A stretch of 64,000 bases of DNA, taken from positions 1-64,000 of the forward strand of contig JAIVFJ010000171.1 of the NCBI GenBank assembly GCA_025765615.1, in the 5' to 3' direction. Below the pieces are notes generated by a model. That model searched no databases. It saw only the letters and a list, made by a program, of their open reading frames with translations, and had not been told where the DNA came from. The stretch is from Zopfochytrium polystomum. Taxonomy: Eukaryota > Chytridiomycota > Chytridiomycetes > Chytridiales > Chytridiaceae. This document shows positions 11,563-63,880 of this stretch, piece by piece. The position numbers and the translations under genes are program-made. The first letter of the stretch is position 1. Each line of letters starts with the position of its first letter.

Positions 11563-11588
11563 TTTCTTGGCGGCTCAGGGTTGCCAAG

Positions 11589-13734: not shown

Positions 13735-13980
13735 AAGGAAAAGTATCGCAAGAATGAGAGTCTCTTCGACAGAATGAAGATCACCCTGTTGGAAGGTTAC
13801 ACTGGATCTGTCCTCACTGAGGAGTCCAGGATGGGTGGAAGACATGCTTTTTGGGATGCAGAGTGCCTGGCCTATGCCCAGGATTGGGGAATCAACTTCA
13901 TGTCTGGACTGTTTCACTCGTCCGTCATCATTCTCCTGTGTTCTGATGTGAGCATGGTCAGAATGCAAAAGGCTGACGAC
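13735..13980 (+). pseudogene. TIR-domain fragment related to the 27-32 kb NLR gene
   Basis: The translation (in the 13651-14109 frame) contains GSVLTEESRMGGRHAFWDAE and DWGINFMSGLFHSSVIILLC, clearly homologous to the TIR exon of the NLR gene at 28150-28360. It has no upstream PB1 or FISYR strand, and homology stops after MVRMQKADD, just before the segment that in the intact gene carries the WE motif with the candidate catalytic glutamate. Beyond the breakpoint the DNA belongs to another family. It is a relic of a second TIR-NLR copy. Confidence 0.7.
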
Positions 13981-14687: not shown

Positions 14688-16051
14688 TTAGTATACTGAG
14701 CTTCTTGAAGCAGATTTTTCTCTTACTGATAGGCCAGCTACAACACCTGATGCATGAAGACATAACCCTGAAAAGAAGTCGCCAAACTTTTGCGGAGGGA
14801 GAGTGCGCAAGACCTGCCCACAACGGGATAGATCATGAATCTTCATACTTGTAAAATTTCCAGTTGTTGTTTTGCTTTTAGCCAACAAGATGCCGCTGTG
14901 TAGACTGAGTGTAACCAACTGGCTTCTGCGAGATTCCCCAAAAAGATGCTTGCGAGATCGAATGTCCCACGCACCAATTCCATATTGGCCTCCGACTGCC
15001 AGGATTGAGTTATCAAGCTGAATCCACATGATCATGGTTTCAAGTTCTTGCGTGTAAACAACATCGCCAGAATGCAGACAGAGCACTTGGACTGCAGTGT
15101 CGGAAATGCGCAACACAATGACACCATTACTAACATCGACGCTGCCACGCGCGCCCTTTGCCTTTCTAAAAGTTCTCGCAATGGTTTTCGACAAGCGGCT
15201 CCAAACGTTGACGCGATCCTCAGCCGCACCAATTATGAGCTCGCGGTTGATGTGCACGAAATAAACAAAATCGCTGAGCCCTCGCAGTGCAAAATCCAGC
15301 GCGCCTGTCTTTGCGTTCCACGCTTTAACTTCGCCATGAAGGGTGCCGCACACGATCGTACTCCTGTGACAGGCGACGCTCTGGACTCCGTGTGAAGCAT
15401 CAAGGGAATCCGCACGCAATTCCTAGTGGCTCAATCCCAGATCTTGACCCCATCGTCGGCGGCCGTCACAATTGAGTACGCGTCGATGCAGATGCAGCGA
15501 ACAGTGCTCGAGTGTTTGTCGTTGAGCTTGCTAGCCTTTGCTAACCGTTGGAAGCTTGCGAGGGCGCTGCGATCGCGGAAGAGCGTTTTCCAGGGGACCT
15601 CGGCGACTGATACGCCGCCGTCACTGCGGCCTTCGATCTCGCGATCGGCTTCGGTTGCATTGATCGTCATCGCCTGGCCGCGGTCGAGGATGTTTGGGGA
15701 CTTGGCAAGCGACACGGGAGCGGCCCAGCGGGCGAGGAACATTGGTTGCCAGATTGTGTCGTGGGATGTGCGGAGCGACCAGAGCTTCGAGGCGCGGCTG
15801 AGCCTGGCGAGGGACTTGACGTTGGATGCGACGCACATGAGCACGCGGCGCAGGACCACTTCGGGCAAGTCCTCCAGGAAGAGTGGGTGTGATGGCTCGT
15901 GCTGTGCGGACAGTGAGCGGGGAGGCGCAGGCAGTGGCGTCTGTGCAGGGAGGGAATGATCCGCGTTGCTCATCTTGTCGACTATTCCAAGTGGCTGAGC
16001 CACCCTCCGCTTGAGACGGTCCAACCGCACAAGGGTCGATGGACGAAGCAA
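14688..16051 (-). pseudogene. F-box/WD-repeat gene, copy 2, one break
   Basis: The 5' half (15431-16051) encodes an F-box-like region (LEDLPEVVLRRVLMCVASN, then LARLSRASKLW) and runs into a WD-like DDGVKIWD before a TGA. The 3' half (14688-15419), in another frame, gives further WD-type units (GEVKAWNAKTGALDF, EDRVNVWSRL, YGIGAWDIRSRKHLFG). A stop plus frame change near 15420-15431 separates them; no clean intron bridges it. The likely start is MSNADHSL at about 15973. An intact product would be a substrate receptor of an SCF ligase. It is the better-preserved sister of the copy at 3.6-5.0 kb. Confidence 0.6.
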
Positions 16052-16055
16052 GCAG

Positions 16056-16170
16056 GATGTCTTGGAGTGGAGGAAAGACAGCGGCTACGAGCTCCAGTAC
16101 TCCTGTCGCTCTCGCTGTGAAACAGGAAGGTAAAGAGCCTTCAGTGCTGGAGGAAAAGAAAGTTGTAGGA
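16056..16170 (+). pseudogene. Isolated LQWW-family repeat units
   Basis: The plus-strand reading DVLEWRKDSGYELQYS is one unit of the ankyrin-like family, with a second degenerate unit (LQCWRK) near 16140. No gene surrounds them. From here to 16493 nothing else is recognised apart from the 5' region of the next gene. Confidence 0.5.
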
Positions 16171-20544: not shown

Positions 20545-23500
20545 GTGGGAATAGTTATTTTGAAGTGTCCTTTGCACCTAACCCAAAAAGTTGTTTGCCC
20601 GTGCTGCTGGAAGATTGTCTCACGTCAAACTCGGGATCGCCACTGCTTAAAGCTCAGCCAGGAAAGAAAGAACAGCTCCAACCAGTTAAGCATCAACAGA
20701 CTTACGCACGAAGAAGTCCCACAACCTGAAGGTGAAACAGAGCTCCAATTGGGAAGGGCTGAGGTTTGGGCTGCATTTTATCTCCTCCTTCCTTTGTTGT
20801 GTTCCTTTTTGATTGTATCCATAATTTAACAATTAACAAATCACTCTTGAATCCAAACCAAACATACACAGGACCAGGATATGGTTGGTGCTGTTGATGT
20901 GTTTTCTGTGAGAGAAACCGCTCTTTTGGAAGGGAACTTTCAAAGCGAGACAGAAGAACCTGATGCAATGGTGATTGATGAGCTACACCAAGAAGAGATT
21001 GACATTCTGGAAAGTGAAACTGAAAGTGAAATTATCGAGATCGGACATGATATTATTGAGACTGGTGGGAGTGTTGGAGAAGGGGAAACTGATGGGGTTG
21101 GCCCCAATGATGAAATTCTGCAGAATCGTGAGCAGTCAACTTGTGATCTGCCCCTACAAACTACTGGGAAGCTCAAAGTCCCTGAAGGTGAATTTGCTTT
21201 TAATGTTCCCTTGAAAAAAAGGCTTATTTTCTATTGGAGGCCATTTGAGCCAATCCCAGCATGCTCAACTTCGATTGCAAGCTTTTAGACTGAAATTTCG
21301 AGTTCCAGTTTCTGCTCTTGAAGCATTGCAATATGTGTATCCATCCGATGAGTATCCTGAGATTTTTTCAGTGTCAAGTCTATTCAGGCCACATTGAGGC
21401 GTGTTTCTGGGTATGCAGATGAAAAGTATGATTGCTGCATCAGAATATGCATGTGCTTCAGTGGAGAGAATTCAAATTTGAAGGAGTGCTTGTTCTGCAA
21501 ACATCCTCGCTACGATGTGAACAGGCGCCCATTTCAGCAGTTTCGGTATTTGCCTTTGACAACCAGGCTGCTGGGTCTGTTCAAGAACCCAGAAACAGCG
21601 CTGAAGATGAGATACAGATCTGAATTCAAGGAGGAAAATGTTGGTGATATATCTGATGTCTTCAGTGGAACAAACTACAGAAAACTGTGCTCCACGAAAG
21701 TTGGAATTGGGTCACATACTTGCAGCTACAACTACTTTGCAGACCCTCATGATGTTGCTCTTGCATTCTCACTGGATGGTGTCAGTGTCTTCAAGAAAGA
21801 TCGGCCAACCTGTTGGCCTGCAGCTGTGTTTCTGTACAGCCTTCCACCTGAGGAAAGATTTCACGAAGAAAACATTATGCCCATTGGTGTAATACCTGGA
21901 CCAAACAAGCCCAAAGTGGCCATTCATGAATGAGATGGTGTCACTTGCAGCTGGAGCACCAGCATTTGATGGATTTGAGCAGAAGCCATTTGTTTTGCGT
22001 GCATACTTGCTCAATGTCTTTGGAGACATGCCAGCAATGGCAATGGCCATGCAAATGAAAGGACCAAATGGATATTTGCCATGCAGAGCTTGTGATATTA
22101 CTGGTTGCAAAGGAGGGAATGAAAATACTCTCTATGTTCCACTACATCGATCAGAAGAGCACAATCAACCTAAAACATTCGACCCAAGACAACTTCCAAA
22201 GAGGACCCATAAGAGGTTTCTTGCCACTGCAGCCAAGCTCAAAAGTGCAAAATCCTCTGCCGAAAAAGAACGAATATCAAAAGCAACTGGAATCAAGGGA
22301 CTGTCAATTTTGACGTACTGTCCTGGTGTGAAGCTACCAGCGTCATTCCCAGTTGACTTCATGCATGAGATGTTTGAAAATGTGTTCAAATTGTTGTATG
22401 CTCTCTGGATGGGAACATTTACTGGGGTCAGCCCAAATGAGAGCAGCGACAATTGGAAGGAGATTGGGCGTCTTACTTGTGAAACAGGCAATACAATTCC
22501 CTCTGCTTTTGGGGCAAGGCTGGGTGATCTTTCCAACACGAAGACAACCCACACTGCTGAGCAGTGGTCATTCTGGTTCCAATATATTGCTCCAACAGTC
22601 CTCAAGCCTTCCCTCTCTGCCATCCACTATCAGCATCTTATTCACCTCATCAGGCTCACTCGCCTCTGCTGCAAGTTCACTATTACTGCGAAAGATTTAA
22701 ATGCTATATGGAATGGCTTTGCTGATTGGGTCACTGAATATGAACGGTAGTAGATTCTTTTGCCTCAACATACTGTAGGGACCTAATTGAAGATATTTTT
22801 TCAGGATTTACTGCTACAATAGCGCAGCTTATGTTTCAAGATGCCCTCTCACCATTCACACACTCCTGCACATTGCAGATTATATTCAAATCTCTGGTCC
22901 AGTTTGCACTTACTGGGCATTTCCAACTGAAAGATTTTGTGGACACTGCTTGCGAGACTGCAAAAATCGTAGAAGACCATATGTGACAATCTCCAACCGA
23001 ATGTGCGAGCGCGAGCAGCTAAATCACTGCAAAAATATCTATAATCTGCATGAGGTGCTGTCATTGGAAAAAGGGTGGATTCGACAAAAGAAACTGTTGC
23101 TGGAAGTCTTGAAGCATGTAAGTTGCACAGTACAAACTTGTACTTCTTAAATTGCTGACAAGACTTTAGACAATAGGTATCATATGATCAAGCCAGGTCG
23201 CGAAAAGGACTGGACCGTCTTCAGTGATGCTCTGTGCTGTGACATACTTCATTGCATTGCCGCACTCTCTGGGGTGGATTACAGTATTCTTACCCAGGAC
23301 AGCGTGAAGTCAAAGTTAAAATTAGAGGTGTGGCATGGTGTCTCTATCACAGGAGGAGGAGATAGGATATTTTCAGCTGGAACTAACTTCAAAGAGAGTG
23401 ATGGCCGTGATTCAACTTACGTTAAGGTAGGTTTATCAACATTAACATAAACTCATCCAGCCAGATTCTTTTATTTGCAGATGGAGCCATCACACCTTCT

Positions 23501-23700: not shown

Positions 23701-24185
23701 TATTCAGTCTTTGGTTGGAAGAGTGAGATACGGAAATGGCTGGATAGTGATTGACCGAGAGCCCTTGTTTTCTCAATAAAGACTTTTCATATAAATCTCC
23801 ATGGAAGGCTTGACAAGTTTTGGATCTACTAACAGCACCTAAGAGCTTCGCTGGGCAGTCATGAGAAAGGACCTATCAATGCCCAAGCTGGAGTTCAACG
23901 AGGTTTGAGTTCAACATAAAAACGTCAAGTGTGACTTTGAACAAACGCCAAATCAATGGTTGAATTTGATTTGACTTAAACTCTGGAGGGATTGACTGAT
24001 TGTGCCATTGCCATTGTGATATTTTTTTCGCACTTTGGGCTGGCGAGGAGCCAACTGGTTGCAGTTTCTCTCTTTTGGTTTCTCTAATACTTAACTGAAG
24101 TGGTTTCGAGAAGAGAAGAATTGGGTTTCCCAGCGTGGGACAAAAAAGAAATGGGAATCCCACTACAATCACCTGGACTTGGGCC
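23701..24185. other. Gap: 3' flank of the CACTA element
   Basis: An AATAAAG lies at 23775. No gene is seen. The stretch AAATGGGAATCCCAC near 24149 recalls similar words inside the ankyrin-like gene at 17.2-17.4 kb. Confidence 0.3.
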
Positions 24186-24335
24186 CACAGTGGTCAACGT
24201 TCTTCAGTGGTGGAAGGATTCGGGGCTGCCGCTCACGTACACGGACTGGGCTTTAGCAGCTCCGAGCCGAAATGGTCGCGTGGATGTCCTTCAGTGGTGG
24301 AAGGACAGCGGGCTGGAGCTGTCAGATGCCTTCAA
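24186..24335 (+). pseudogene. Two LQWW-family repeat units
   Basis: The reading [20 protein letters not shown], then ASEPKW-like DNA in frame as [22 protein letters not shown], gives two clean units of the ankyrin-like family. It ends in an A tract (24332-24342). No start codon or N-terminal module is present. Confidence 0.65.
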
Positions 24336-26460
24336 AAAAAAAAAATACGTAAAGTGCTCGTTCCGTTTTTTCCGTTCAGTCCCCGCGCCGACGATCTATC
24401 TAAGTTCAGGATGCCATAGGCCGAATTGTTCTGAGCGCCTGCTTTCTGTTCTACTACACCTTAAAACGTTTAAGCGCGTGCTTAAGCTGTGACTCGCCTA
24501 GTATCGCGCGCAATACAGATTTTTCGACGGTCCGGGGCAATGGGCGATCAGTTATAAGCATTTGGAGGGAGTTGAGCGGAGAGCAGATTTAGTGGTCTTA
24601 TGTTTGTCTCCAGTTAGAGCGGCAGAGGCCTGGCAACCAAGAAGTTTTGGCCACTTTCAGCGGATACTTGAAATGACTCGATAACACGCGTTGTGAAAGA
24701 CCCACCGCAAGCTTGGATCCAAAGCTCAAGAGGAGAGCGGGACGAGCAACGCGTACGAACGGTAAGCGCGCGTCACCATCATCGACGGACAACAAAAAAA
24801 ACTGGGCGAAAATGACGACGACCCCCGCCCGCCGCCGCCTCATCACAACCAACGTTCAGACAAGCATCGGCTGCTGCAAATGGGTGCCTTCAAAGGCTGG
24901 CAAAGAGCGGTCTCAGGTGGACCGACAGCAGTCGTGGCTTCCACCGCCGCTTTGGCTGGGCTCAGCACCACAGAATATTCCATTTCAGGCCCTTTTCTTT
25001 TTTTTTTTTTTTTTCTTCCTGGCTGCCTTTCAAAGCAATCCCTCCCACTTGATCGAGCGCAAACCAAGTCTAGCCGCCCCAAGGAAGGCGGGTAGACGCT
25101 CTCCGCTCTGCAGTGAAGTATTCGCCGTCCGGAGCCGGATGGTCAGGCCCCGAAGGCGTTTGAGGTTTCGCGGAGAGATTTGGGGGGCGCAGCTCGTTTC
25201 GGACAAACCCAACAGCCCTTCCACCGGAGCGGCCAGCCAGATCGAATCAAAGAGCCCCCGATTGAGCTCGCTGATGGCTTTAGACTATTGAGTTGCAGCA
25301 CAGAAATTCAGTCTCATTGTCAGTGATCGTCACGTCCTTCCTTTCCCCTCGCCCACCTATTGAGTTGCAGCACAGAAATTCAGTGCAGAACTCTTGACAA
25401 GGAGCAACAGGGATAAGAGGGATGAAGAACCCAGACAATTCCAAAGATGACTACGAAGGCCTTAAATAAAGTAACACAATATAGACAACAGCGGTGCGGG
25501 CAACGCCGCACCCGGCGGCGGCTTCGGTCCGGAGAACGCGCGTGTTGCCAGGATCCTTTGCAAGCAGTTCGCCGCGAAAGAGAAGAGAACGAACTGGACC
25601 TTAGTGATTGATCGCGTTAAAGTGGTCTCGTTTGTTTGATTATGGTAGGCGCACTGTCGAGTCCTGGGGGCCGGGAAACAAGCCTGTCACTGACGGTTTG
25701 CCTCCACGCTCGTCCCGCAACTCACCAGCCATCGACCCAGTCGTCGAAACGATTGACAGTTGGTTCGCCCAATCGTGCGATTCCGCCGCGGCCTCTGGCG
25801 CGCCCAATCCTTCCCCTGCCGAGGCACCTTCGAGCGTAGAGGAGGAAGCGACGCAAGTGTCGAGGCCGTCGTTGCCGGGCGAAGGTGGGCAGGTTGGGAA
25901 ACCTGTGCGGTCGACCTTGCCAGATTTGCTGTCGCTTGTTTTTGTGTGGTGACGCCATTGAAAGAAATACGCCTGTCCATAGCTCGTGGATTTGGCTCTG
26001 CATATTTATTATCAACCTGCTTTCTTGAAATTAGTAAGGCCGATGTGTCCCCCTCGTCTGCTGGGCAGATATTCCGACCGTCGCCGAAATGGACCCCTCA
26101 CGCGCCTTCCATCATCTTGACCGCGATCCGCTGCCACACAGCATTCTCACCCTCGCGTCGCTCCGACACCCCCACAGAATCCAGGCCGAGGCTCTTACAG
26201 CCCTCTTCGCTTCATCGATAGCGGAAACGCACCAGTCTCGACTTTTTTTCTCGTCCATTGGCCACTCCAGCGATTTGCCGCATCGTATGCCAACCAATCG
26301 AGGAATTATGCGTAATCGATCGAGCTCCCGGACAGCAGCCCCCAGCTCCCTTCCTTCTGCGCGATGCGCCTAGCCAGCCACAGGGTGAGGCGAACCGACA
26401 ACTTGCACTGGTAGAGTAAGAGCGGGCTGGGGCTCATGTAAAACGAATGTTCCTGAATAA
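24336..26460. other. Gap: about 2.1 kb without a recognisable gene
   Basis: The region holds a T tract (24997-25016), the 28-bp direct repeat listed separately, and several ORFs of 90-190 codons (24713-25291, 25608-25952, 25760-26221, 26089-26373 plus) that overlap each other and have no domain I know. The last resembles an N-terminal helix-rich segment but matches no family. Confidence 0.3.
25285..25384 (+). repeat. 28-bp exact direct repeat, 72-bp period
   Basis: The same 28 bases (starting CTATTGAGTTGCAG, ending AAATTCAGT) occur at 25285-25312 and 25357-25384, separated by 44 bp of unrelated sequence. Confidence 0.85.
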
Positions 26461-26665
26461 ATTTCTGCAGTGGAAGAACGACAGCGGGCAGGAGTTGAAG
26501 TACGACAATAAACATGGCAACCTCAAACGGGCAGCTCCACGTGATGGAGAGGAGGAAGCTGAGCGGTTTATCACTGAAGTAAGATGCCTCAGCGGTAGTA
26601 CACGCGTTTGAAAACAGCTTGATCGACGTGTTGGAGTGGCGGAACGACAGCAGACGAGTACGATG
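26461..26665 (+). pseudogene. Degenerate LQWW-family units
   Basis: FLQWKNDSGQELKYDNKHGN (26462 on) and DVLEWRNDSRR (26622 on) are eroded units of the family, in different frames. Confidence 0.5.
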
Positions 26666-27463
26666 TTGCGGCAAGGGACAAAGCAACAGGACGCGCAGTT
26701 GCCACAGTCCACGTGGACGGACAGCGGTTACACGCTGGAACGCTCTACTGAATCACTTCGTCTTGCTCATCTTAACGAAGCGGTCCATAATTTACGGTGG
26801 GGGAGGGTCAGCGGACGGGAAGTCGACTTGGGCATTGTCCATAACTGGCAAGCGGTGTTCTCTTTCGCCTCTCTCTTCGAGTTAAGCGGTGGTGTCGAGA
26901 CGCGCAGAGGGCCTACGTGAATGCAGGGCTCTGGAACAAAAGCAGGCACAGAGCTAATCTCAAAGTGTCGGTGGAGTCCAGTGTGATGGCAAACGGGAGA
27001 AGGGAAACTTGACCAAGAAGAAGAAAAGGATCGCCACTGGATCATGCCGTTTCGGCGAGCAGATCCTTGTCGAGTGAAGACAGCGAGCGAGCAAATGATC
27101 ACAGATCGACCGATCGAGACACCGACTATCGACTATCGGGCCGAAGGCCACTCCGGTTCAACCGCCCAGAGGATGCGGCGTCAGCTTCGCCACAGCAATG
27201 TGGATTGGTGAGAGGCGGACATCTCCTCGTTTCTTCGCTTTTTGTCGTTGCCCAAATTAGCTCAGTGAGAACTGACCACCCCTATTCGATTTGAACAAGA
27301 GCACAACGTCGTCGTCTTCGACCACGTGGACGAGCGGCTGCGACGACCGTCTTCTCCAAAACACCGATCCTCAATCCTTCTTGCATGCATACATTTTCTG
27401 GCCCAAAGTCTAATGCTCATTCCTTTATTGCAGACTCTGCCACACAAAGCTTTCGTCAGAATC
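26666..27463. other. Gap: 5' flank of the NLR gene
   Basis: No gene is recognised. An in-frame upstream ATG at 27326 would add 46 residues that look unlike the PB1 fold, so I place the NLR start at 27464. Promoter elements were not identified. Confidence 0.35.
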
Positions 27464-30400
27464 ATGGCTAGCCAACCAACTGCGTGGACTGCGATCTTTG
27501 AGTATGGTGGAAAGAACAGGAAGATTTCTGTCCCTGCCACCATTGGCCTTGATGATCTGCTTCAGCTTGTGGCAACCCGTTGGAAGATTGCGTTTCCCAT
27601 TGATTTGGTGTATGTGGACTCTGCTACTGGCGACGAGATGGTCCTTGATGTGGATGATGATTTGCCAAGCCTTCTGTCTCAGGGGTTCAAGTGGAAAGTA
27701 AGGCACTATCTTACATTTGTTCTTACCAACTATGGTCTCACTATTTTCAAGGTCCTCGCCGCAGAGACTTCCACAAACTCCTCAGGAACTGTTCCTGATT
27801 CTCCTGTCATGAACACTCCTGCTGTTGCAGCATCGCCTTCCGCCCAATCTGGTGGCAGTCACAGCGCTCCTGTCTTTGCTGACGATGATAAACATGATGA
27901 GACTATCGAGTGCAAGAAAGGTGGGTCCTTGTTGTTGATTTTCCTTGGCTCATTTCATTGGATCATTGTTCCTTGTTTATTCACCTTCGTTCCCACAGAT
28001 AAATGGATTGAGCTGATTCCAATTGATTGGGAGTGTAAAAGCTCTGTGCAGAAGCACCCCTTCTTCATAAGGTCTGCTTAACACTACTTGGACGAACAAT
28101 CTAACTCTTGTTGCAGCTACCGCCAAGCATCAGAGACTAATGTTGCCATGAGTCTGTTCCACGAGATACAGGAAGCTTTGCTGAAAGATTTCAGAGGCAG
28201 CGTTCTTCCAGAAGAATCTAGATTGTTTGGTCTGCATCCTTTTTGGGATGCAAAGTGCCTTGCCTTTGGCCAGAAGTGGGGAGTCAACTTCATGTCTGGA
28301 CTCTTTCACTCTTCAGTTATTATTCTGTTGTGCTCTGATGCTAGTATGGAGAGAATGCTTGAGGCTGACAAAAAGCCTGACAACTGCTTGCTAGAGGTAA
28401 GAAAGAATGTTTTGAATAAGAAAACACTGACATTTGACCCTAGTGGGAGCTTGCCCTTCAGATGAAGAAGGAAAAGGGTCTCGATATCCTGCCTGTTCTC
28501 CTTTCAGGCAAAGTGACTGCCACCCTTGACGATGGGAAGAAGGCTTTGCTGGTAAAAAACTTCAGTACTTTTGATCACACCAAATTTCCTGATGTGCCAC
28601 ATGCACACCCACTGAGCCCTGGCCTCCAAACTGTTGCTGTAACTGTCAAGATGATCTTGGCACTAGATGGGCCAAAGGCTCACCCTGAGAGCGATGTTGT
28701 AAAGTATGTGCCAGCACTATCTCATTTTTGTGTTCATTAGTTTGTTCTGACAATCTTCTAAACTTTCATAGGATTGTGACTGTAGCTAGAGAAGTGCACA
28801 GTCGCCGCAAGGCAGATTTGAAGACTGATAATCCAAGTTCAGATATCTCCCTTTCCAGATCGAGCTTGGCTGTTTTGGAGAAATGGCTGACGCCTCTGTC
28901 CGAGCTGATGGAGGCTGAGAGGCAAGCCCTCCTGAAGAATGTGCTTTCTGGATCAAGGCAGTGGCTTCTCAAGAAAGTTTTTCAGTTTTTATCCCCAGAT
29001 GACGCTTCAGCAGCAAGTGCAAACAGGGTGATGTGGTTGAAAGGAGTGGCTGGAGTGGGCAAGTCTGTGATGGCTGCCATGGTCTCCAGGGAGCTGCAGG
29101 CCCAAGGCATGCTTGGCGGCTTGTTCTTTTGCAAGCATGATGATGAGCGTCGCAGCAGTGCACACAACCTGGTCTTGACCCTGGTGTTTGGCCTTGCAAA
29201 GTTCAGTGTTCAGTTTGGAGAGATTCTCCTTCAAGTCAAGCAGGACAATCCAGATATTCTGTCCAGATCTGTGTTTGAGATGATGAAAGTGCTGCTTGTT
29301 CAGCCATTGGAGAAAGTTGTTGAATCCAAAAAGCTGGCTGTTCCTGTTGTGCTGGTTGTGGATGCCTTGGATGAATGTGGTGCCATCAACAAGCGGCAGG
29401 AGATTCTGTCAGTGTTTCAAGAGCTGAACAGGTTGCTTCCTGGAAATGTGAAGATGCTCGTAACAGGACGCCCTGAAGAGGACATTGCCAAGGCCTTTGA
29501 AAAGATTCCAGTTGAGGCGATTGAGCCAACTGCTGAAGAGAACACCCAGGACCAGCTTGACTTCACCAGAGAATTTCTGAGGTCTTTGAATGCTGAACCA
29601 TTTGTGGTCAATGAAGGCTCGAAGATTCTTGTGTCTAAGTCCTCAGGGGTATTTGTCTGGCTTGTGACTGCCTGCAACTTTCTGAGGAAATCAGATAATG
29701 AAGAAATTACTTTGGAGCAAATTGAGAACCTTCCTGAGGGTGACAAGATGGATGGCAGCATTGATAGAATGTATGACAGAATATTTTCTGGCATCCTACA
29801 GTCTGCTGTGAACAGTCATTTAGAGTCTCTTCTAAATGTTGTGCTGTCGACCATTCTACTTGCATATGAGCCTTTGACTGCCGAAGCAATGGCATCAATG
29901 CTAGACAATGAAAACCCTGAAAATGTGAAGAGATGCATCCGCATGCTTGATCCAATCCTTTTGCTTGACGGTTCCACAAAGAAGATCAGGATTTTCCACA
30001 AGTCTGTGAAGGACTACTTGACAAACCCATCCAGATGCACGCTATCTGTCCAGATCAATCTTAAAAGTGGCCATTCAGCATTGACACGCCAATGCATCAG
30101 CGCAATGGACAAGCAATTCAAGTTCAACATGTGCGATCTGCCATTCTCAGACTTTCACTCTGAGATTCCTGACTTTGCTGAGAGGGTTCAGAAAGCTTTG
30201 CCTGAGCATGTCATATATGCTGTGAAACACTTTTGGGAGCACTGCTTTGATTCATCTGGCAAGACCATTGTCTCCACTGAGGCACAAATAACAGGGCTTG
30301 ACCAAACCCAATTGGCTCAACTTGGAGTGCCAGATTTCCTTGTCAATCATGGTCACCACTTCCTGGAAGCCTGCAGCTTGTTGGACTTGCTCCAACTGGT

Positions 30401-32570
30401 CATTCCTGCCATGACCAAGCTCCAGATCCTCGTTCCAAACAAAGAGAACCAGCAACTTCAAACCCTGCTGGAAGACATGAAACGTGTTTTGCAAACATTC
30501 CTGACCCCCCTCAAGGCATCTGCATTGCAAGTGTATTTCACAGCTGTTCCCTTCTCTCCAAGTACCTCTGAATTTCACAGAACATTTGTTGAAAAACTGC
30601 CCACAAATTTGTCATTCCCAAGAATGATACAAGGGCAGCCAAAGAGTTGGCCCTCTTGTATCAATGTTCTTGAGGGACACTCTTATATTGTCACCTCTGC
30701 AGCATTCAGTCCTGACAGGCAGTTTGTCGTCTCTGGATCTGATGACAAGACAGTCAGGATATGGAATGCATCCACTGGTCAGGAGCTTCGGAAGCTGGAG
30801 TCACATACTGGTGCTGTCAAGGTGGTACAATTTAGTCCTGATGGGCAGTTTGTTGTGTCTGGAAGCGAAGACCAAACAGTCAGGATTTGGAATTCATTCA
30901 CAGGTCAGGAGCTGCACAAGCTTGAGGCACACTTGGACAGTGTCAGCTCTGCAGCATTCAGTCCTGATGGGCAGCTTGTTGTATCTGGAGGTCGTGACGA
31001 GACTGTCAGAATTTGGAATGCATCCACTGGTCAGGAGCTGCACAAGCTGGAGGGACACTCTGGATCTGTCAACTCTGTCGCTTTCAGTCCAGATGGCCAG
31101 TTTGTTGTGTCTGGGAGTGGGGACAATACAGTCATGGTTTGGAATGCATCTTTGGGCCAGGAGCTGCGCAAGCTGGTGGGGCACGAGTCTTGGGTGCAAT
31201 CTGCAGCCTTCAGCCCTGATGGGCAGTTTGTTGTGTCTGGAAGTGGCGACATGACCATACGAATTTGGAATGTATCCACTGGCATGGAGCTTCACAAGTT
31301 GGTGGGACATTCTTATTATGTTCACTCTGTTGCATTCAGTCCTGATGGGCGCTTGGTTGTGTCAGGAGCTTGGGACAACACAGTCAGAATTTGGAGTGCA
31401 TCCACAGGCCAAGAGCTGCGCAAGCTGCTGGGGCACTCCAATTATGTCTACTCTGTAGCATTCAGTCTTGATGGGCAGTTTATTGTTTCTGGAGGTATTG
31501 ATCAGACAGTGAGGATTTGGAATACCTCCACGGACCAAGAGCTGATCACAGATCACGTAATGGGGGGAATGTATGATGTGGTTGTGTCTGCTACATTTAG
31601 TCCTGATGGGCAGTTTGTTGTGACTGGAGGTTATGACAACTCAGTCCGGATTTGGAACGCTTCCACTGGTGAAGAACAGTGGAAGGTTGTGGGGCAGTGC
31701 GGTTTGCGCGGCGCTCTGGATCCTGTGTTCAGTCCTGATGGGCAGCTTGTTGCGAGTGGAATTACATGGGAGACGCTAGGCATTTGGAATGCGTTTACTG
31801 GGCAGCAGCTGTGCGAGCTTGTGGGGCACTCTGACTTTCCTGAGAGTGCATCTTTCAGCCCTGATGGGCAGTTTGTTGTATCTGGAAGCCGTGACAACAC
31901 AGTTCGGATTTGGAATGCTTCCACTGGTGACGAGCTGCATAACCTGGAGGGGCACTCTGATGCTGTCAATTCTGTTGCATTCAGTCCTGATGGTAAATAT
32001 ATTGTGTCTGGAAGTCATGACAAGACAGTTAGGATTTGGAATGCATCCACTGGCGAGGAGCTGCAAATTCTGGAGGGGCACTCTGGTGAAGTCAGATATG
32101 CCACTTTCAGTCCTGATGGGCAGCTTGTTGTTGCTGAATGCTTTGATGATACTGTCTGGATTTGGAACGTACTCACTGGCCAGGAGCTACACAAGTTGAA
32201 CGGGTTCTCATTTGCAAAGTCATCTGGGTTCAGCGCTGATGGACAGTATGTTGTCTTGAGAGACGGGAATGGACAAGCAAAACTTATCAACCTCGTGACT
32301 GCAATTGAAATGGAAGAGAGTTCTGTCACAGCTGTACCCTTAATCTCTAACCTAAATCACACTTTTTGGGCGCGTAATGCAGCAGGACACAAACTTCAAC
32401 ATGGCCAAACTGTCCTTGAGTCTGTTCTGAGCAATGGTGTTTGGTTTACCAATAATGTTACTCAAGTGTGTTGCTGGCTTCCTCCCACACTTCGAGGCAA
32501 CAGGCAACTCCTGTCGAAGCAAAGAATTTTTGCTGTTGGGATTGGGTTTTCTTTACTCATTCAGTCTTAA
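27464..32570 (+). CDS. NLR-type receptor: PB1-TIR-NACHT-WD40 (1604 aa, six exons)
   Basis: Exons 27464-27697, 27752-27920, 27999-28071, 28117-28396, 28444-28703 and 28772-32570 join in frame (4815 nt). Residues 6-75 look like a PB1 domain, with an acidic OPCA motif (YVDSATGDEMVLDVDDDL). A Ser/Thr-rich linker follows. Residues 153-290 are a TIR domain: KHPFFISYR, FWDAKCLAFGQKWGVNFMSG, SSVIILLCS, then CLLE/WELAL with Glu252 as candidate catalytic residue, and DILPVLL. NACHT spans about 420-740 with Walker A GVAGVGKS (430-437) and Walker B VVLVVDALDE (about 530-540). Twelve clear plus one or two weak WD40 units (about 970-1525) are unusually alike (SPDGQFVVSG...TVRIWNASTGQEL). By family logic the WD array senses, NACHT oligomerises, TIR signals (possibly NAD cleavage) and PB1 recruits a partner. 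This assignment of roles is inference. Confidence 0.85.
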
Positions 32571-35298: not shown

Positions 35299-36564
35299 TG
35301 AGGCGAAATGATAAAGTTGACTAAAGGGTTTGAAGAAGAGCCCAAACTTGAGAACAAAAGGACTCGAGCGACTGGCTGAACACGGCGCTGACCTTTTTTC
35401 CTCGATCATCGCGCGCGAGCGACCACAGCTAGATGACAGGCGGTAGCAGCAGCAGGGGCGCAAGTGCTAGTTGAGGTCGTCAGATCGTTTGCTCGTTTGA
35501 GGCCCGACTGCGGTGGCAGCTGCCGTCAGTCGGCGAAATTCATTCAAATGAACCCATCTCAAGCAGCTCGATAACTGATTACATTAAACTGGTTACATTT
35601 TTTGTAATCCACCATTCACCGACTAGGAGGTGAAAATTGTACTGAATAGTGAAATGGCAACAGCGCTCGCGTGTCGTATCAGGTACTGTGTTTGATTCCC
35701 CGCAATTACATAGCCTCGATACTCTTGCGCCGCATCGCGGTAAGGCCAAAACTGTGGTTTTGGCAACGTTCCAGACCTTGATGGCCGCGCGTAGCTCGAC
35801 CACAGGCGCCAGGCAGCAGCAGCGGCGGCAGAACGCACTTGTTCTTCTGTCTGGTCGTGATTGCTGCGGCTGCTGCCGTTGGTCGATGGCGGAAGGTAAA
35901 AGGGATACGGGCCAGGGCAACAAGGTGAGGGTGAATACAAGAGCTATTGTGCGAACCAATGTTTGAACCAATCTTCTCCCCATGATCCCGATTCCATGTT
36001 TGAAAGGGAAATGCCAAGCTTTGTTGTGCGGCAAGGTTGCCTGGATAGTTAACATGGACTTTGATCATTCCATGCACAGAATTGCCAAAAAAGGGAAGGA
36101 GAGATTTTTTTCCTTTTCTTGTTTTTCTTTTTTTTTTTTTGCTTTGGACGCGAGCGACAGAGCGGCGAAGTCCGCCGGCATTGGATTGGAAAAAGGAGGG
36201 ACTCGTTCAAATGCAAAAATGGAACTTCGCTCATGGAGACATCCTTTGGAGACAAAGAGAGAGAGAAAGAGACGACAGGCAGACAGACAGACAGCCAGTA
36301 TATGAAGTATTCATGCCGTTCATGCGGCGAGCCGAGATAATTGAGCCATCATTTGCCGCCCCAACCGCGTCGACGCCCGCACTCGCCCCTCCCTCCAAAC
36401 CCAACAACCCCCCTCAACACCCCCCCAGCACCCGGCAGCAGAGCAGCCACAGCACAGCAGCAAGAACGGTCGCGCCCCTTTCGATTCCCATCCCCCATCC
36501 CCCCCATCCATCAACCGCCGTGATTCGTCCAGCTTGTTAGTTCGTCGCGCGCTCTTAAGCCAAC
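35299..36564. other. Gap: no gene recognised
   Basis: Contains a T tract (36128-36140) and a (GACA)n tract (36273-36294) about 270 bp before the pectin lyase start. Short ORFs only. Confidence 0.35.
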
Positions 36565-38474
36565 ATGCCCGTCCTTCTCCTCTTCCTCGCCGCCGCTGCA
36601 GCAGCGCCGCTGGCACTCCTCCTTCCTGCTGCACCCGCCGCCTACGCGCTCAAGGCCACCGGATCACCCATTGGCCAGGCCGCTGCTGCCGGTAACGCCC
36701 CACCGTCAACTTGCCCCTTCCCCCCGTTGCTGTGTGCGCTCGCTTCCTCGTCTTTCAGTTTTCTAACAACGAGGTGGCCACACTGTGTTTCGACATAAGG
36801 TGTCACGGGCGGCGGTGACCAGACCCCAATGATCCCAACCACCAACGCCGAGCTCATCACCATGCTGCAAGGAACCACTCCGCGCGTCATCCAGCTCACA
36901 AAAGTATTCGACTTCACCGCCGCTCAAGGAACTGTCACAGCCCAGGGCTGCTCCCCTTGGTCGTGCAGCCCAAGCCCGCAGCAGGCCATCAACAGCGTCA
37001 ACTACTGCGCCAACCAGCCCGCCGCCACCATCACCTACAACAAGCAGGCCCTAGCTCCGCTCGCCGTTGGCTCCAACATTTCCATCCTCGGCTCTGGCGC
37101 AAACGCCGGCTTGAAGGGCGTCGGTTTGAAAATATCCGGCTCGTCCAACGTCATTGTCCAAAACATCAAGATCACCGACCTGAACGCCCAGTTTGTGTGG
37201 GGTGGCGACGCTTTCACCGTCGTTGGCTCCACCGGCGTCTGGATCGACCACTGCTTCACCCAAAACATTGGCCGAATGCAGCTCGTCATGGTAAGCGCGT
37301 CGAATTCAGCGCCAATGGATCAATATCTATATCTATCGCATTTCCACTGACTTTTTGAATGAAGGGCTACGCTGCCAGCAAAGGCGTCACCATCTCCAAC
37401 AACGAGTTCAACGGCGTCACCAACTTTTCTCCCTACTGCAACAACAAGTCCTACTGGATCATGCTGCTGGTCGGTATCAACGACGAAATCACCATCGCGC
37501 AAAACCTGATCCACGACTCGTCCGGCCGCGGCCCGCACATTGGCGGCACCGCCGGCTACGTCCAGAAGCTCCACCTCGTCAACAACTACTACACAACCGT
37601 CGACGGCCACGCCATCGACCCGGAGCTCGGGTCCCTGACACTCGCGGAGGGCAACGTCTTCAACGCCGTCAAATTGCCCGTGACCACCAACTTGGACGGA
37701 AAGCTCTTTTTCCCGCAGACCGCGGCCGACGCGGCGGCCTGCACCGCCGCCTTGGGCCGCGCGTGCGTCCCCAACTCGGTCACGGGCGGCTCCGGCGCCG
37801 TCTCACGGCTCGAAACGGACCCGCTGTCGTCCTTCTCGGGCGTCGCCGCCGTCTCGGGGCGTCGCCGCCGTCTCGGGCGTCACCCCGATGCCCGCCGCCA
37901 GCGTCGCCGCCTTTGTCACCGCCAACGCCGGCGTCGGAAAGCTCGCCGCCGCCGCCGCCCCCCGCTCCTTCCAGCAAATCATCCACCGCAGCAGCAGTCG
38001 TGGCCCCTGCCACCTCGAAGCCAGCATCAACCCCCGCCGCCGCCGTAGCCACCACCACCCCTTCCACCCCGGCCACGGGCGGCGGTACCACCACCACCCT
38101 GACTGTCGGCGTCGGCTTCACAGGCTGCTGGCCCGCGACGGGGGGCACCCAAGCCGCCTTCACGCTCAACATCGACCCACCCCCGACCGCCGAAACCGGG
38201 CTCCCCCCTCGTCTCTCTCTCCTTCTCGACCTCCCCCACCGCAATCTCGACCCCCTGGAACGCCGGCTCGTCCGTCTTTTCCGCGGTGCAGGGGACCTGG
38301 TCGTTCGCGACGCTCGACGACCAGCCGAACCCGGGCGCCGTGCTGTCGTTCCCGTTGAGCGTCGCGTGCGTCGGGAACGCGTTGAGCCCGGGGGTCACGG
38401 TGAAGGTCAAGGCGACGGTGGGCGGGGTCGCGGCGAGGGTCGTGTCGACCGTCGCGGGGATTACGGCGGGGTGA
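36565..38474 (+). pseudogene. Secreted pectin lyase (PL1) with C-terminal module, frameshifted
   Basis: Exons 36565-36691, 36800-37290 and 37365 onward. A signal peptide (MPVLLLFLAAAAAAPLALLL) leads into VTGGGDQTPMIPTTNAEL and the PL1 beta-helix: GLKISGSSNVIVQNIKITDL, FVWGGDAFTVVG, VWIDHCFTQNIGR, VTISNNEFNGVTNFS and SGRGPHIGG with the expected catalytic-region Arg. These enzymes cleave pectin by beta-elimination outside the cell. After SSFSGVAAVSG a 19-bp exact tandem duplication (37839-37857/37858-37876) shifts the frame. Beyond it, in changing frames, lie a Ser/Thr/Pro linker (PSSKSSTAAAVVAPATSKPA), then TLTVGVGFTGCWPATGG and GTWSFATLDDQPNPGAVLSF, resembling a secreted C-terminal binding module, ending at a stop at 38472. 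It is either a recent pseudogene or assembly error in GC-rich sequence. Confidence 0.75.
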
Positions 38475-39269
38475 ATGTAAATTGCGCTGATTTCGTGGGG
38501 TGGACGGCGTCGAGGTAGTGTCCCTGTTGAGAAGTTGAATCTCCTCTCAACCTCGATTTTCAGTTTCCTTTTCGTTTAGCGCGCTGGAATGTCGCAGAGC
38601 TATCTTTTTCCGTTTCTCAATCCCCTGTCTGGTATCTCTCTGCTGCTTTTGAAAAGAAAATGTTGCTGCGTTGGTACATATATCGGAATAAATGGATTAT
38701 AAACGTTGCAGCTGTGGGGAGCTATGTACTACCATACAGAATTTGATCCGTTAAACGAGCACTTATCGATTTGTGTGCTCGATTTCACCAGCCACAAAGA
38801 GGTCGAGGACCACACTGGATACGCGGCCACGGGCAGGACCTGCCATTCCAAATATAATTGGTCTCTCTTTCAGTTCCACAGTTGAAGCTGTAATTGATCT
38901 CTTTCTCTGTCCGTCCTGCTACACACAAGAGTCCTTCCTGAAGAATATGCCGAGTAAGTTTGTTCTTCACGAGTCTTCGAGTGGAAGACAACAGAAAAGA
39001 TGGTCGGGTGAACCGAACCACCGCCGACCGATTACATCGGTCGCTTTCCCGCCGTCGTCTCAATCCAAATCTGCTGCTACTCCACGCCCACGCGCGATCC
39101 CTACACACTTCGCGCCCCTCCTCCGCATCTCCAGAATTCAAGCCACCTCTCTGATGAAGATCGGCGGCCGCCGCTATTTCCTCGATCCGCGTGGACTCCA
39201 TCGAGGCCTCCTCGACTTTCTTCTGCGCCGCCTGCCGCGCACGCGGTTCGTAGCATCGTGCACCACCAG
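38475..39269. other. Gap: 3' flank of the pectin lyase gene
   Basis: An AATAAA lies at 38687. ORFs at 38773-39282 lack recognisable domains. Confidence 0.3.
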
Positions 39270-39680
39270 CGCCATTGGATGACGCAAAGTCAGTCGAGCT
39301 ACTGCAGTGGTGGCTGGACAGTGGCCTGGAGCTCCGTTACACGGCGCTTGCAATGAATCGCGCCGGCAGCACGCAGACCTTGCAGTGGCGGAAAGGGAGC
39401 GGGAAGGGCTGCTGCTCGTTTACAACGAATGGGCGATGGTGGCTCCCGTTGACTGTGCATCAACCGACTTTCCACGGTGGTGGAAGGACAGCGAGTTGGA
39501 ACTGAAGCATGACAATCGAGTCGTTTTCGAGGCCAGCAGAAATGGACAGCCCCGCGTGCCGCAGTGGTGGAAGGAGAGTAGACTCCCGTTGGATTACGAT
39601 GCCAAGCCAGATCAATCTAAGTCCGAGTGGTCTGTTGGTAAAGACCGCCTTCGGATATTCGCGAACGTTGGCGCTGCGTC
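39270..39680 (+). pseudogene. LQWW-family ankyrin-like fragment
   Basis: Units read VELLQWWLDSGLELRYTALA, TQTLQWRKGSG, then after a frame change FPRWWKDSELELKHDNRVVF and PQWWKESRLPLDYD. Four units in two frames, with no N-terminal module. A further stub (STWWKESGERPL) occurs near 39950 after a T tract at 39823-39847. Confidence 0.6.
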
Positions 39681-43625: not shown

Positions 43626-45848
43626 TTACTTCTTGTCCGCGTCCTTGAATTCTGCGTCGGTCGCGTTCGAAGATGACGAAGCCTCTGAAGAGGACGACGA
43701 CGACGACGACTCGTTCTGCTTCTTCTTGTACACCATCTCAAAGAGCTTCAGCGAGTCGCGCTGAAGGTCGTCGTACTTCTCCTTAATCTCCTCGGGGGTG
43801 ATGTCGTCGGCGCCCTTGCCGATGAAAGCCCGCAGGTCCGCGATTTTGGACTTGAGCTTGTCGGCCTCGGTCGCTTCCAGCTGGTCCTTGAACTCGTCCA
43901 TGGCCTTCTCCGTCTCGTGGGCAATGCTCTCGGCCTTGTTCGACTCTTCGATCACGTCCTTGCGCTTCTTGTCCGCTTCGGCGTGCGACTCGGCCTCAGC
44001 AACCATCTTTTCGATTTCGGCGTCAGAGAGACCAGACGAGGCGGCGAGAGTGATGGACTGGTCCTTGTTCGTGGCCTTGTCCTTGGCGGACACGTTCACA
44101 ATGCCGTCGGCGTCAATATCGAAAGCGACCTCGATTTGGGGGACGCCACGCGGGGCGGGCGGGATGCCGACGAGGTTGAACTGACCAAGGAGCTTGTTGT
44201 CGCGGACGAGAGGACGCTCTCCCTGGAACACCTTGATTTCGACCTGGGTCTGACCGTCGGCAGCGGTCGAGAAGACTTGCGCCTTCTTGGTGGGGATGGT
44301 GGTGTTGCGCGGGATCAGTGGGGTGAAGACGCCGCCGAGGGTTTCAATGCCGAGCGAAAGAGGGGTGACGTCCAAAAGAAGGATAGACGTGACTTCTCCA
44401 GAAAGCACCCCACCCTGGATGGCAGCGCCAATCGCCACAGCTTCGTCTGGGTTGACTGCTTTGGAGGGCTCCTTTCCAAAGATGCTCTTGACCATCTCCT
44501 GAACCTTGGGGACACGCGACATTCCACCAACAAGGATGACTTCGTTGATCTCCGAGGTGGAAACACCGGCGTCCTTGATGGCCTTCTTGCAGGGCTCGAT
44601 GGTGCGGTCCATGAGCTCCTTGGTAAGCTGTTCGAACTGGGCGCGCGTCATCTTCATCGAAATGTGCTTGGGACCGTCCTGGTCAGCCGTAATGTAGGGG
44701 AGGTTGATGTCGGTTGAGACGGTTGACGAAAGCTCGATCTTGGCCTTCTCGGCGGCCTCACGGATCCGCTGCAAAGCCATGTTGTCCTTCTGGAGGTCGA
44801 GGCTGTTTTCCTTCTTGAACTGCGCGACAATGTGGTTGACGAGCGCGTTGTCAAAGTCCTCGCCACCAAGGTGAGTGTCACCGTTGGTGGACTTGACCTC
44901 GAAGACACCCTTCTGAATCTCGAGAATCGAGATATCGAACGTTCCACCTCCAAGATCGTACACGGCAACAACGCGGTCGCCAGACTTGTCCAAACCGTAC
45001 GCGAGTGCGGCTGCAGTCGGTTCGTTGATGACTCGAAGTACGTTCAGACCAGAGATTTGGCCTGCATCCTTGGTGGCCTGACGTTGCGCATCGTTGAAGT
45101 AGGCTGGGACGGTGATGACGGCGTTGTTAACAGGCTTTCCGAGGAAGGCTTCGGCAGTCTCCTTCATCTTCATTAAGACGAAGCCACCGATCTGCGACGG
45201 CGAGTACTTCTTCCCACGGGCCTCGACCCACGCGTCGCCGTTGCTGTGCTTCACGATCTTGTATGGGACGATTTTCTGATCGCGGGTGACGATGGGGTCG
45301 TCAAAGCGGCGACCAATCAGGCGTTTGATGGCGAAGAGCGTGTTTTCGGGGTTGACGACGGCCTGCCGCTTAGCTGGGGTTCCGACGATCAACTCGTTGT
45401 CCTTTGAAAACGCGACCACCGACGGCGTTGTCCGACCACCCTCTGAGTTTTCAATGACGCGCGGAGTCTTTCCGTCCATAACTGTGGTTGGGCAGGGAAG
45501 ATGAGTAGAAAGGATAGCGCGTCAGACGGGGAGGCGTGGGTCGAAAAAGAGGTAATCTTCGGCACCACCTACCAGCAACACAAGAGTTTGTTGTTCCCAA
45601 GTCGATACCGATGATCTGGCCCTGGACCTTGTCGCTGCGAGTGGGAAAAAAGGACGGCACAGGTAAGCGGGCAGCTCACACGACAGGAGGATCGGATGGA
45701 CGATGGATGGGGCAAGTCACCTCGAGAAACGAGCGAAGCCGAGGCTGCCGGCCATGGACGACGGCCGCGCGACCATTTGGGGACGGAAAGCGGATGACGC
45801 CGAAGCGCGGGCGAGCATGGACCGCGCCGACCGAGACGATGCGTACAT
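43626..45848 (-). CDS. SSC1: Mitochondrial Hsp70 (681 aa, three exons)
   Basis: Exons 45848-45721, 45634-45573 and 45481-43626 join in frame. The Arg/Ser/Ala-rich N-terminus ([20 protein letters not shown]) is a mitochondrial presequence. The nucleotide-binding domain shows [12 protein letters not shown] split by intron 2, [32 protein letters not shown] and [12 protein letters not shown]; the substrate-binding domain has [17 protein letters not shown], followed by the helical lid and a Ser/Asp-rich tail. It is the matrix chaperone that drives protein import (with Tim44 and the J/GrpE partners) and folding. An alternative upstream in-frame ATG at 45914 would lengthen the presequence. The frame is complete with no damage. 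Confidence 0.95.
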
Positions 45849-63009: not shown

Positions 63010-63880
63010 TCTGCACTAGTTTCTGCTATCGGACACGTTCTCGGAATGGGACAGTCTTTTACATCGCCATACTGGCCCCGCGCCAATGGTACTGCTGAAC
63101 GTTTCATTAAAACTTTGAAAAACTATGATTCGTGCCTACATCAACCAACACACCCATGAGGACTGGCCCCAAATCCTTCCTTATGTGCTTTTTGCATATC
63201 GTACTCATCCTCATCCACTCCTCGGTGATACACCCTTCTTCTTATTACATGGACGTGACTGCCGTTTACCCCCTGACCTCTTCCTTGGAGTCACCCCTGA
63301 GGATTATGAGGACATGCCTCAAATTACTAAAGTGTCTGACGTCGCTGGCATCCCTGACAGCAATGACAATGAACCAGAAACTCTTCTTTCTCACGCTGTA
63401 GTAAGGGGAAAAGCTATCCCGCTTACCTTAAACCCTAAGCTTGAACCAGCACCATTCCTCCGCATTGCATATATCAAAACATTTGACCTTCGAATGACGC
63501 TGCACCAGCATATCCCACAGAAGCTGCGTCCTTACCCAACAGAACCATCTGCCTCACGCATCTTGACTGATCTCGTTGAGATTCATAACCTTGATATTGT
63601 ATACATTGTATTCACACGTACTCGACAGACCCGATCCATAAAGAAGGTAGATCTCCCTTTTTTCCTCTGTACCAACCATAGAGTGCTTGTTTGGTCAGTC
63701 GTATTCTACAATCCGCAGAAAAAAGAGATTTGCTACATCTATTCCCTACGTGGGACCCTGTTCCAAGAGACTGATGGGCCTTGCCCTTCCTTCCCACGAG
63801 GATATTGCACATCAGATGAAATTGCGAACCTCCGCTTTTGGCATAGTATGCTTGCGCCCACCCAGTATAAACCTGATTGA
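63010..63880 (+). mobile_element. Ty3/gypsy-type integrase fragment
   Basis: The integrase core reads SPYWPRANGTAERFIKTLKN, then after a one-base shift MIRAYINQHTHEDWPQILPY, YRTHPHPLLGDTPFFLLHGR and LPPDLFLGV, the usual gypsy pattern (NG..ER, DW...LP, TPF.L..GR). The following 170 codons to 63880 have no retroviral-type chromodomain and no family I recognise. Earlier gag-pol parts are missing. The rest of the window to 64000 has no further feature. Confidence 0.7.

Follow-up and report, generated by a model that had tools for sequence, protein, structure and literature searches.

A predicted PB1-TIR-NACHT-WD40 receptor gene and its expanded family in the chytrid Zopfochytrium polystomum

The DNA analysed here, referred to as the window, is a stretch of 64,000 nucleotides from Zopfochytrium polystomum, a chytrid of the Chytridiales (contig JAIVFJ010000171.1, positions 1 to 64,000). 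Positions 27464-32570, on the forward strand, form a six-exon gene of 1604 codons that has no internal stop; its product carries four modules in the order PB1, TIR, NACHT and WD40 array. This four-module reading was put forward in an earlier note made from the sequence letters, and it is upheld by Pfam and by profile matches to solved structures; the fungal origin given there is also correct. The note counted 13 WD40 units; the array is present, but it consists of 12 regular units and one decayed unit. By all signs in the sequence, the locus is an intact, jointly spliced receptor gene.

Exon 1 (27464..27697) encodes the entire PB1 domain (residues 1-78), which has an acidic OPCA motif and no lysine on strand beta-1 (type I). 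Exon 2 (27752..27920, residues 79-134) is, judging by its translation, a variable Ser/Ala/Pro-rich linker between PB1 and TIR, and is matched in only a minority of paralog loci. A WxC lead-in and the first TIR strand (HPFFI) are in exon 3 (27999..28071). Exon 4 (28117..28396) encodes the core of the TIR, including D203 and, as the last codon of the exon (28394-28396), the putative catalytic E252. The end of the TIR, whose C-terminal limit is undefined, and the link to NACHT follow in exon 5 (28444..28703, residues 253-338). Exon 6 (28772..32570) carries the NACHT, a winged helix, a helical region, the WD40 array and a C-terminal tail, with the stop codon at 32568-32570. All exons lie on the forward strand, and the introns, of 54, 78, 45, 47 and 68 nucleotides, are all GT-AG. 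A caveat to the gene model is that the lengths of introns 1 and 2 are divisible by three and neither contains a stop, so that their retention would keep the frame open.

Are the exons joined in one gene? Seven of the ten junction sites were compared, counting only paralog exons whose match reached the junction. Donor 1 is kept in 35/35 unique exons, donor 3 in 35/36 and acceptor 3 in 30/30; towards the NACHT, the figures are 29/30 for donor 4, 36/36 for acceptor 4, 31/32 for donor 5 and 33/33 for acceptor 5. A deposited Z. polystomum paralog model, P0046, has all joins as in the window gene, through Walker A, with 66% identity over 469 residues. Because the splice sites are conserved in paralogs and P0046 aligns across the joins, the joining is not due to chance. 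A second deposited model, P0011 (1193 residues), likewise has PB1, TIR and NACHT, at least to Walker A, in one model. With its 1604 open codons, GT-AG borders and conserved splice sites, the arrangement of six exons and five introns thus holds as originally proposed. The window protein itself was absent among the deposited proteins returned by the protein searches. Of the six Z. polystomum models found by the first protein search, only P0011 has PB1-TIR; the other five begin within the NACHT or close to it.

The PB1 domain is recognized when the first 100 residues are scanned alone (PF00564, E 4e-6, 27.1 bits against a cut-off of 23.6, residues 12-73); in a full-length Pfam scan the best 25 of 78 families are all of WD40 type, with neither PB1 nor TIR among those 25. 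A profile of 11 N-termini has the NBR1 PB1 as its best match in the PDB (1.1e-4). The next matches, all PB1, are non-significant (PKC-zeta 0.024, MEKK3 0.12, Cdc24 0.2), and chains at E of 0.3 and above are mostly unrelated. Comparison by hhalign of a profile of six non-NLR PB1s of the genome with the PB1s of the NOD-like receptors (NLRs) gives 96.7% probability (E 4.5e-10). The acidic OPCA residues are conserved in exon 1 of the paralogs: D52 in 33/34, D65 in 33/34 and D66 in 30/34, four of 38 unique peptides (L005, L008, L020, L034) being omitted as truncated or frameshifted. The docking lysine on beta-1 is absent from all 34 retained peptides. Its place (I11), which aligns with the lysine of NBR1 and with the invariant lysine of the six non-NLR PB1s, is Ile or Val in most peptides, the other residues listed being Thr and Ser; the basic residues R19 and K20, which form a pair, are retained in most of these peptides. 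A PB1 with the acidic face only is termed type I; those with the basic beta-1 lysine are type II or, as self-polymerizing domains, type I/II. By its residues the window PB1 follows the type I pattern, not type II or I/II, and with the acidic face only it should not self-polymerize by the canonical contact.

The excised TIR region matches TIR_2 (PF13676, E 3.7e-7, 31.1 bits against a cut-off of 28, residues 197-275), and the score falls to 27.0, just below the cut-off, in an 833-residue context. TIR_2 is the sole match in the excised region at E<=1; a HET domain (PF06985) was not found there. No ARM or SAM match is listed for the excised parts, the full-protein list being the best 25 of 78 families. 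When a profile of 14 chytrid TIRs was compared with the PDB, SARM1 came first (3.2e-10), followed by tir-1, plant Roq1 and bacterial TIRs, with MyD88 at an E of only 1.2. E252 is aligned with the Glu of SARM1 VHKEIVTAL. In the retained unique paralog exons E252 is found in 38/38, D203 in 37/38, and W253 and E254 each in 40/40; S159, Y160, D203, N248 and E252 are invariant across all 14 aligned TIRs. Omitted from these counts as truncated or frameshifted are three of 41 exon-4 copies (L001, L034, L067) and four of 44 exon-5 copies (L028, L032, L033, L043). At E252 the three omitted exon-4 copies have one Ser, one frameshift and, in a copy truncated at its start, one Glu.

The NACHT ATPase (29025..29543, forward strand; PF05729, 5.2e-6 in the genome search) has Walker A K436, Walker B D536 and DE539-540; by direct reading Walker A is GVAGVGKS (residues 430-437) and Walker B VVLVVDALDE (residues 531-540). 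In excised parts NACHT scores 28 bits against a cut-off of 26.7 and NPHP3_N (PF24883) 97.1 against 24.8 (1.6e-27), and NB-ARC remains below its cut-off in the window protein (12.8 bits against 23.5). A winged-helix-like segment (HTH_TANC1, 29838..30086, forward strand) is sub-threshold, with 25.4 bits against a cut-off of 27. The WD40 array (30657..32300, forward strand), the presumed sensor, has regular units of 42 residues, and Pfam matches WD40 in 11 stretches. With a NACHT that has Walker A and B and with C-terminal repeats of the superstructure-forming kind (WD40), the predicted protein fits the definition of a fungal NLR.

WD40 positions 10, 11, 12, 14, 30, 32 and 39 have high dN/dS (the ratio of nonsynonymous to synonymous divergence) in the Podospora genes het-d, het-e and het-r, according to the sections consulted of PMC12222747. 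Variation in the window array clusters at the same seven HNWD sites, the register of the window units to this numbering being fitted by the analyst. Ten of the 12 units were measured; units 8 and 9 are out of register and were excluded. Entropy is 2.33 bits at the seven sites and 0.67 elsewhere (p 4.7e-5). A raw nonsynonymous-to-synonymous count on the units was dropped as confounded and was replaced by codon-position and NG86 measures. By these, median dN exceeds dS at the HNWD sites (0.95 and 0.57; four of 45 pairs not estimable), whereas the remaining positions have a median dN of 0.20 against a dS of 0.74. Divergence at codon positions 1 and 2 of the HNWD sites was matched by none of 2000 random seven-position sets.

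The receptor gene is one of many. The assembly (80.16 Mb, 761 contigs) has at least 86 NACHT matches, a lower bound from one Pfam model, together with 220 TIR exon and 144 PB1 matches. Merging 150 listed of the 220 TIR matches gave 95 loci; a PB1 match lies 181-585 bp upstream on the same strand at 88 of these, and a NACHT match 332-684 bp downstream at 55. Near copies are included, and 88 is therefore a number of loci in the assembly, not of gene lineages. PF00564 has 46 matches in the genome, 30 of them on NLR-PB1 places (27 over the cut-off, the window locus included), and 45 of the 86 NACHT matches sit in open frames of at least 1000 residues. The earlier note considered TIR rare in fungi. 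TIR-NLRs have already been reported from chytrids (PMC9815663, from the part consulted), and Z. polystomum has dozens of loci. Paralog DNA was drawn from the best 8 NACHT, 30 TIR and 30 PB1 matches, and pairs were kept at dS 0.05-1.5. Median dN/dS is 0.267 for PB1 (495 pairs), 0.182 and 0.222 for TIR exons 4 and 5 (377 and 490 pairs), and 0.195 for NACHT (323 pairs). Purifying selection acts on the exons of all three domains.

Near-identical copies of the window gene on C66, C191 and C285 are all broken by frameshifts or deletions. Those on C66 and C191 have lost WD40 units through out-of-frame deletion, and that on C285 has two frameshifts; some of these lesions could be assembly errors. A fourth copy, on C144 (L043), is without TIR exons 3-4. 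The surroundings are duplicated as well: window positions 36000-39500 recur on C191, C285 and partly C66 at 94-96% DNA identity. Four haplotypes were considered as the source of the C66, C191 and C285 copies and thought unlikely, as RNA polymerase loci are not repeated in the same way; the four strong large-subunit loci (>70 bits) are each on a single contig. Recent segmental duplication is the likelier origin. Besides these four, the genome has eight weak over-cut-off RNA_pol_Rpb1_2 matches (25-39 bits) on seven other contigs (C491, C7, C175, C160, C64, C374, C158), several of them in open frames of 600-800 residues.

A second, partial TIR-like stretch lies in the window at 13756-13980 (forward strand) and reaches 65% against residues 36-110 of the query TIR. 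C66 (37198) and C285 (17222) have a similar fragment upstream of their near copies, about 7-8 kb away, compared with 14 kb in the window. Between fragment and receptor gene, at 21361-22750 (forward strand), there are two sub-threshold matches to the transposase tnp2 (PF02992), and an insertion at this stretch could explain the longer spacing.

Loss of the TIR was surveyed at 12 of 20 PB1 loci initially picked for having no listed TIR. In two paralogs, C9 and C63:260114, a short linker connects PB1 to the NACHT in frame; splice signals are present and TIR exons are missing. C257 and C182 keep just the exon-5 part of the TIR, and are thus without E252; the frame of C182 is open. At least part of a divergent TIR is present at C198, C252, C145, C12 and C143. 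The NACHT of C59 is cut down, and C72 and C76 have PB1 alone within the stretch examined. The PB1 can thus persist where the TIR is lost, and the fact that two paralogs without a TIR retain it in frame suggests that it has a separate function. By analogy with plant NLR pairs, a split into sensors and helpers might be suggested for the Z. polystomum receptors.

How widely is the architecture shared? The first protein search returned 45 proteins from 8000 scored candidates, those sharing most words. The top relatives are from chytrids, namely Z. polystomum itself, Cladochytrium, Nowakowskiella, Rhizophlyctis, Quaeritorhiza, Chytridium and Entophlyctis. Chytriomyces and Synchytrium rank lower, and Thelephora and corals match through the NACHT part. 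A SAM domain (5.4e-8) stands ahead of the TIR in Chytridium lagenaria (P0019), in the place of the PB1 here; precomputed domains of Synchytrium microbalum (P0042) include a kinase ahead of the TIR, and WD40. When the PB1 was aligned by hhalign with eight chytrid N-termini, the result was clear only for P0011, i.e. Z. polystomum itself. A broader PB1 hidden Markov model, trained on NLR and non-NLR PB1s of Z. polystomum, was run on 14 N-terminal stretches cut by eye. P0020 scores 20.1 bits, P0013 11.5 and P0005 9.0, with 0/200 shuffles as high in each case. Scores are weak for P0038 (6.2; 1/200, best shuffle 11.1), P0015 (2.8; 0/200), P0017 (2.3; 1/200) and P0008 (1.7; 2/200), and the remaining seven of the 14 are unsupported. 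Pfam alone gives sub-threshold PB1 matches in P0020 (0.031, behind a domain of unknown function at 0.01) and P0015 (0.045), and none in P0013, P0005 or the Z. polystomum paralog P0049. By these scores Rhizophlyctis rosea (P0020) is likely to have a PB1 before its TIR; Quaeritorhiza and Cladochytrium may have one, and in other chytrid genera it is unproven.

What might the protein do? It is a candidate immune or incompatibility receptor. We think it probable, with some reserve, that it is an NLR whose TIR would cleave NAD+ on assembly, with the PB1 docking or clustering it. From the domains we infer that the WD40 propeller would read a ligand through its hypervariable top face and that the NACHT, so triggered, would oligomerize. 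The oligomer would pack the SARM1-like TIRs together and NAD+ would be cleaved, which may be directly harmful or may yield a signal nucleotide, and cell death or arrest would follow. The N-terminal PB1 would be an assembly or docking module: its acidic face may dock on a PB1 that bears the lysine, or a non-canonical contact may add clustering. The SAM of C. lagenaria, another oligomerizing module in the same position before the TIR, supports a role in assembly. As to the locus, the window gene is an intact copy within a large NLR family, with dozens of related receptors, that probably turns over fast.

Several points weigh against this picture. The Trp of the WxxxE motif matters in TIR NADases, and the tryptophan of SARM1 is replaced here by Asn (N248, in 14/14 TIRs); catalysis can therefore not be taken for granted. 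In nine further chytrid WD40 NLRs, including four paralogs from Z. polystomum, the HNWD sites are again the more variable ones (16 proteins were compared, seven of which have too few units). The ratio is 1.35-1.98 in these nine, with p>0.05 in one, as against 3.17 in the window protein, and the pattern is thus partly a general WD40 property. The ten in-register units are 63% alike on average, compared with more than 80% quoted for Podospora HNWD. Finally, the broken near copies could mean a relaxed need for the family.

Could the TIR be a non-catalytic homotypic adaptor, as in the adaptors of animal Toll-like receptors, with a further protein, brought in by PB1 or TIR, providing the output? 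The Asn in place of the WxxxE tryptophan would fit, as would the 12 PB1 loci examined, two of which keep a TIR part that lacks E252 and two of which have no TIR exon. All 14 aligned TIRs, however, have D203 and the Glu that aligns with that of SARM1, and the nearest solved relatives are NAD+ hydrolases, not Toll-like receptor adaptors, MyD88 being far from significance; this reading is possible though doubtful.

A second alternative makes the PB1 a plug for recruitment of NADPH oxidase. Its acidic face would dock on the PB1 lysine of NoxR (p67phox), as that of p40phox does in animals, and an oxidative burst would arise beside or instead of TIR signalling. The p40phox-p67phox pairing rule, of a PB1 acidic face onto a lysine, is established. 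The NLR PB1s are acidic only, with no Lys in 34 peptides at the position of the NBR1 lysine, and the two top-scoring PB1s of the genome (65 and 51 bits) carry the docking lysine. Two p67phox/NoxR-like loci, L098 (C8:384300-388300) and L099 (C2:743200-747200), have a TPR-like open reading frame upstream of a lysine-bearing PB1; that on C8 matches p67phox (2.2e-16), and that on C2 is similar by eye, although Pfam gave no family in it. In both, the TPR and PB1 frames were read as two distinct open reading frames. Other lysine-bearing PB1s are also at hand: all six aligned non-NLR PB1s have the docking lysine, and the non-NLR PB1s of the genome include NBR1-like ones and some that we take to be CBS-PB1-like. 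NoxR recruitment is on balance unlikely; that an acidic NLR PB1 docks on some lysine-bearing partner PB1 is, going by the residues, a testable idea, not a result.

The function of the family might instead be self/non-self (fusion) incompatibility and not antimicrobial defence. The layout and the variable WD40 sites are like those of the Podospora HET-NACHT-WD40 incompatibility genes, and the copies of the locus vary by WD40 deletions and frameshifts. The family members, on the other hand, run to dozens, and we regard this alternative as improbable.

A decaying family, in which most members are failing duplicates and the window copy is intact by chance, seems improbable to a greater degree. It would account for the lesions on C66, C191 and C285 and for the missing TIR exons 3-4 on C144. 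The median dN/dS of 0.18-0.27 in PB1, TIR and NACHT exons, the conserved splice sites, the long frames around 45 of the 86 NACHT matches and the possibility that some lesions are errors of assembly speak against it. That exons 1-5 are a separate PB1-TIR gene or transcript and exon 6 a NACHT-WD40 gene was rejected as very improbable: five of six Z. polystomum models have their start within or close to the NACHT, and two PB1-TIR models, P0047 and P0049, stop before it, but P0011 and P0046 run from PB1 through at least Walker A, and donor 5 and acceptor 5 are conserved.

Returning to the NAD+-cleaving receptor favoured above, a broader and speculative extension, which we hold to be more probably wrong than right by a good measure, can be sketched. 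Chytrids may have a receptor class with SARM1-like logic, in which an exchangeable PB1 or SAM precedes a TIR NADase gated by NACHT-WD40, and whose origin was independent of the PB1-TIR-NB-ARC proteins of plants. The class would have expanded in Z. polystomum to dozens of members in PB1-linked networks, where TIR-less paralogs would act as sensors that recruit TIR partners via PB1. Docking of the type I PB1 on a lysine hub such as NoxR would tie loss of NAD+ to an oxidative burst.

Other features of the window are as follows. Upstream of the receptor gene, at 24088-24492 and 26420-26700 (forward strand), repeated WWKDSGL-type stretches have a worn ankyrin-type look, an impression by reading only. 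A long HSP70 frame of 631 residues is at 43626-45521 (reverse strand). F-box-like proteins, sub-threshold, are at 14688-16084 and 10234-11574 (both reverse strand), the first followed by weak WD40 matches. An open reading frame at 63119-63880 (forward strand) resembles, again by reading, the end of a retroelement integrase, with no Pfam match at 0.01.

The significance of these findings lies first in numbers. A single chytrid genome has at least 86 NACHT matches and 88 PB1-TIR loci, partly hidden by annotation that starts near the NACHT. A 2014 survey found no NLRs in chytrids (PMC4986451), and a recent one reports counts of one or more NLRs for Chytridiomycota species (PMC12258605), both as stated in the portions consulted. 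Second, a true TIR, not just a HET relative, is present on an expanded fungal NLR family. Third, PB1 is added to the fungal NLR toolbox, in parallel to the plant case. Do fungal TIRs cut NAD+? Does PB1 link TIR-bearing and TIR-less receptors? These are the questions opened by the family.

How does the window protein compare with known systems? With the PB1s of NBR1, PKC-zeta, MEKK3 and Cdc24 it shares the fold family and the acidic OPCA, NBR1 alone being clearly significant by sequence; it differs in that its PB1 sits on an NLR and is without the beta-1 lysine. SARM1 and tir-1, whose layout is ARM-SAM-SAM-TIR, are the nearest solved TIRs; they are NAD+ hydrolases in which an oligomerizing domain adjoins the TIR. 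The window protein has PB1 and not SAM, NACHT-WD40 and not ARM, and Asn in place of the WxxxE Trp. The HNWD proteins of Podospora anserina (HET-E, HET-D, HET-R) have the same order of effector, NACHT and WD40 and the same variable WD40 positions, and HET is a distant relative of TIR. They form a family of five, with units over 80% alike, whereas the Z. polystomum family numbers dozens and the window units are 63% alike; the window protein has a bona fide TIR and not HET, and an extra N-terminal PB1. Plant TNL proteins have NB-ARC and leucine-rich repeats, and the window protein NACHT/NPHP3_N above cut-off and WD40.

The TIR-bearing NLRs already reported from Chytridiomycota (PMC9815663) and from fungi, where they are called a small group (PMC10197012), are alike in joining TIR to a nucleotide-binding domain. 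The term 'pb1' does not occur in the text consulted of these two papers or of PMC4986451, PMC12258605, PMC12881547 and PMC11291939. Among the open-licence papers in PubMed Central listed by literature searches on PB1 in such receptors and on chytrid TIR-NLRs, preprints aside, none describes a PB1 on a fungal NLR in its title or the start of its abstract. The earlier note knew of no PB1-TIR pair on one NLR. For fungi this stands as far as the searched literature shows, and the pairing is new only there, since plant PB1-TIR NLRs are in print: AsTIR19 and AsTIR57 of Arachis stenosperma are truncated TIR-NLRs with a PB1 (PMC9786959, here and below from the part consulted). AsTIR19 has PB1 at 9-111, TIR at 135-294 and NB-ARC at 339-525, a fusion backed by RNA reads. 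Overexpression of a plant PB1-TIR-NB-ARC NLR gave higher resistance to a fungus, and the PB1, treated as an integrated decoy-like domain, has been proposed to act in oligomerization and recognition (PMC9786959). AsTIR19 and the window protein thus have PB1, TIR and a nucleotide-binding domain in the same order. The plant proteins differ in having NB-ARC and not NACHT, no C-terminal repeats and a PB1 called type 2 (PMC9786959), in contrast to type I here, and they are the products of two genes, compared with dozens of loci in Z. polystomum.

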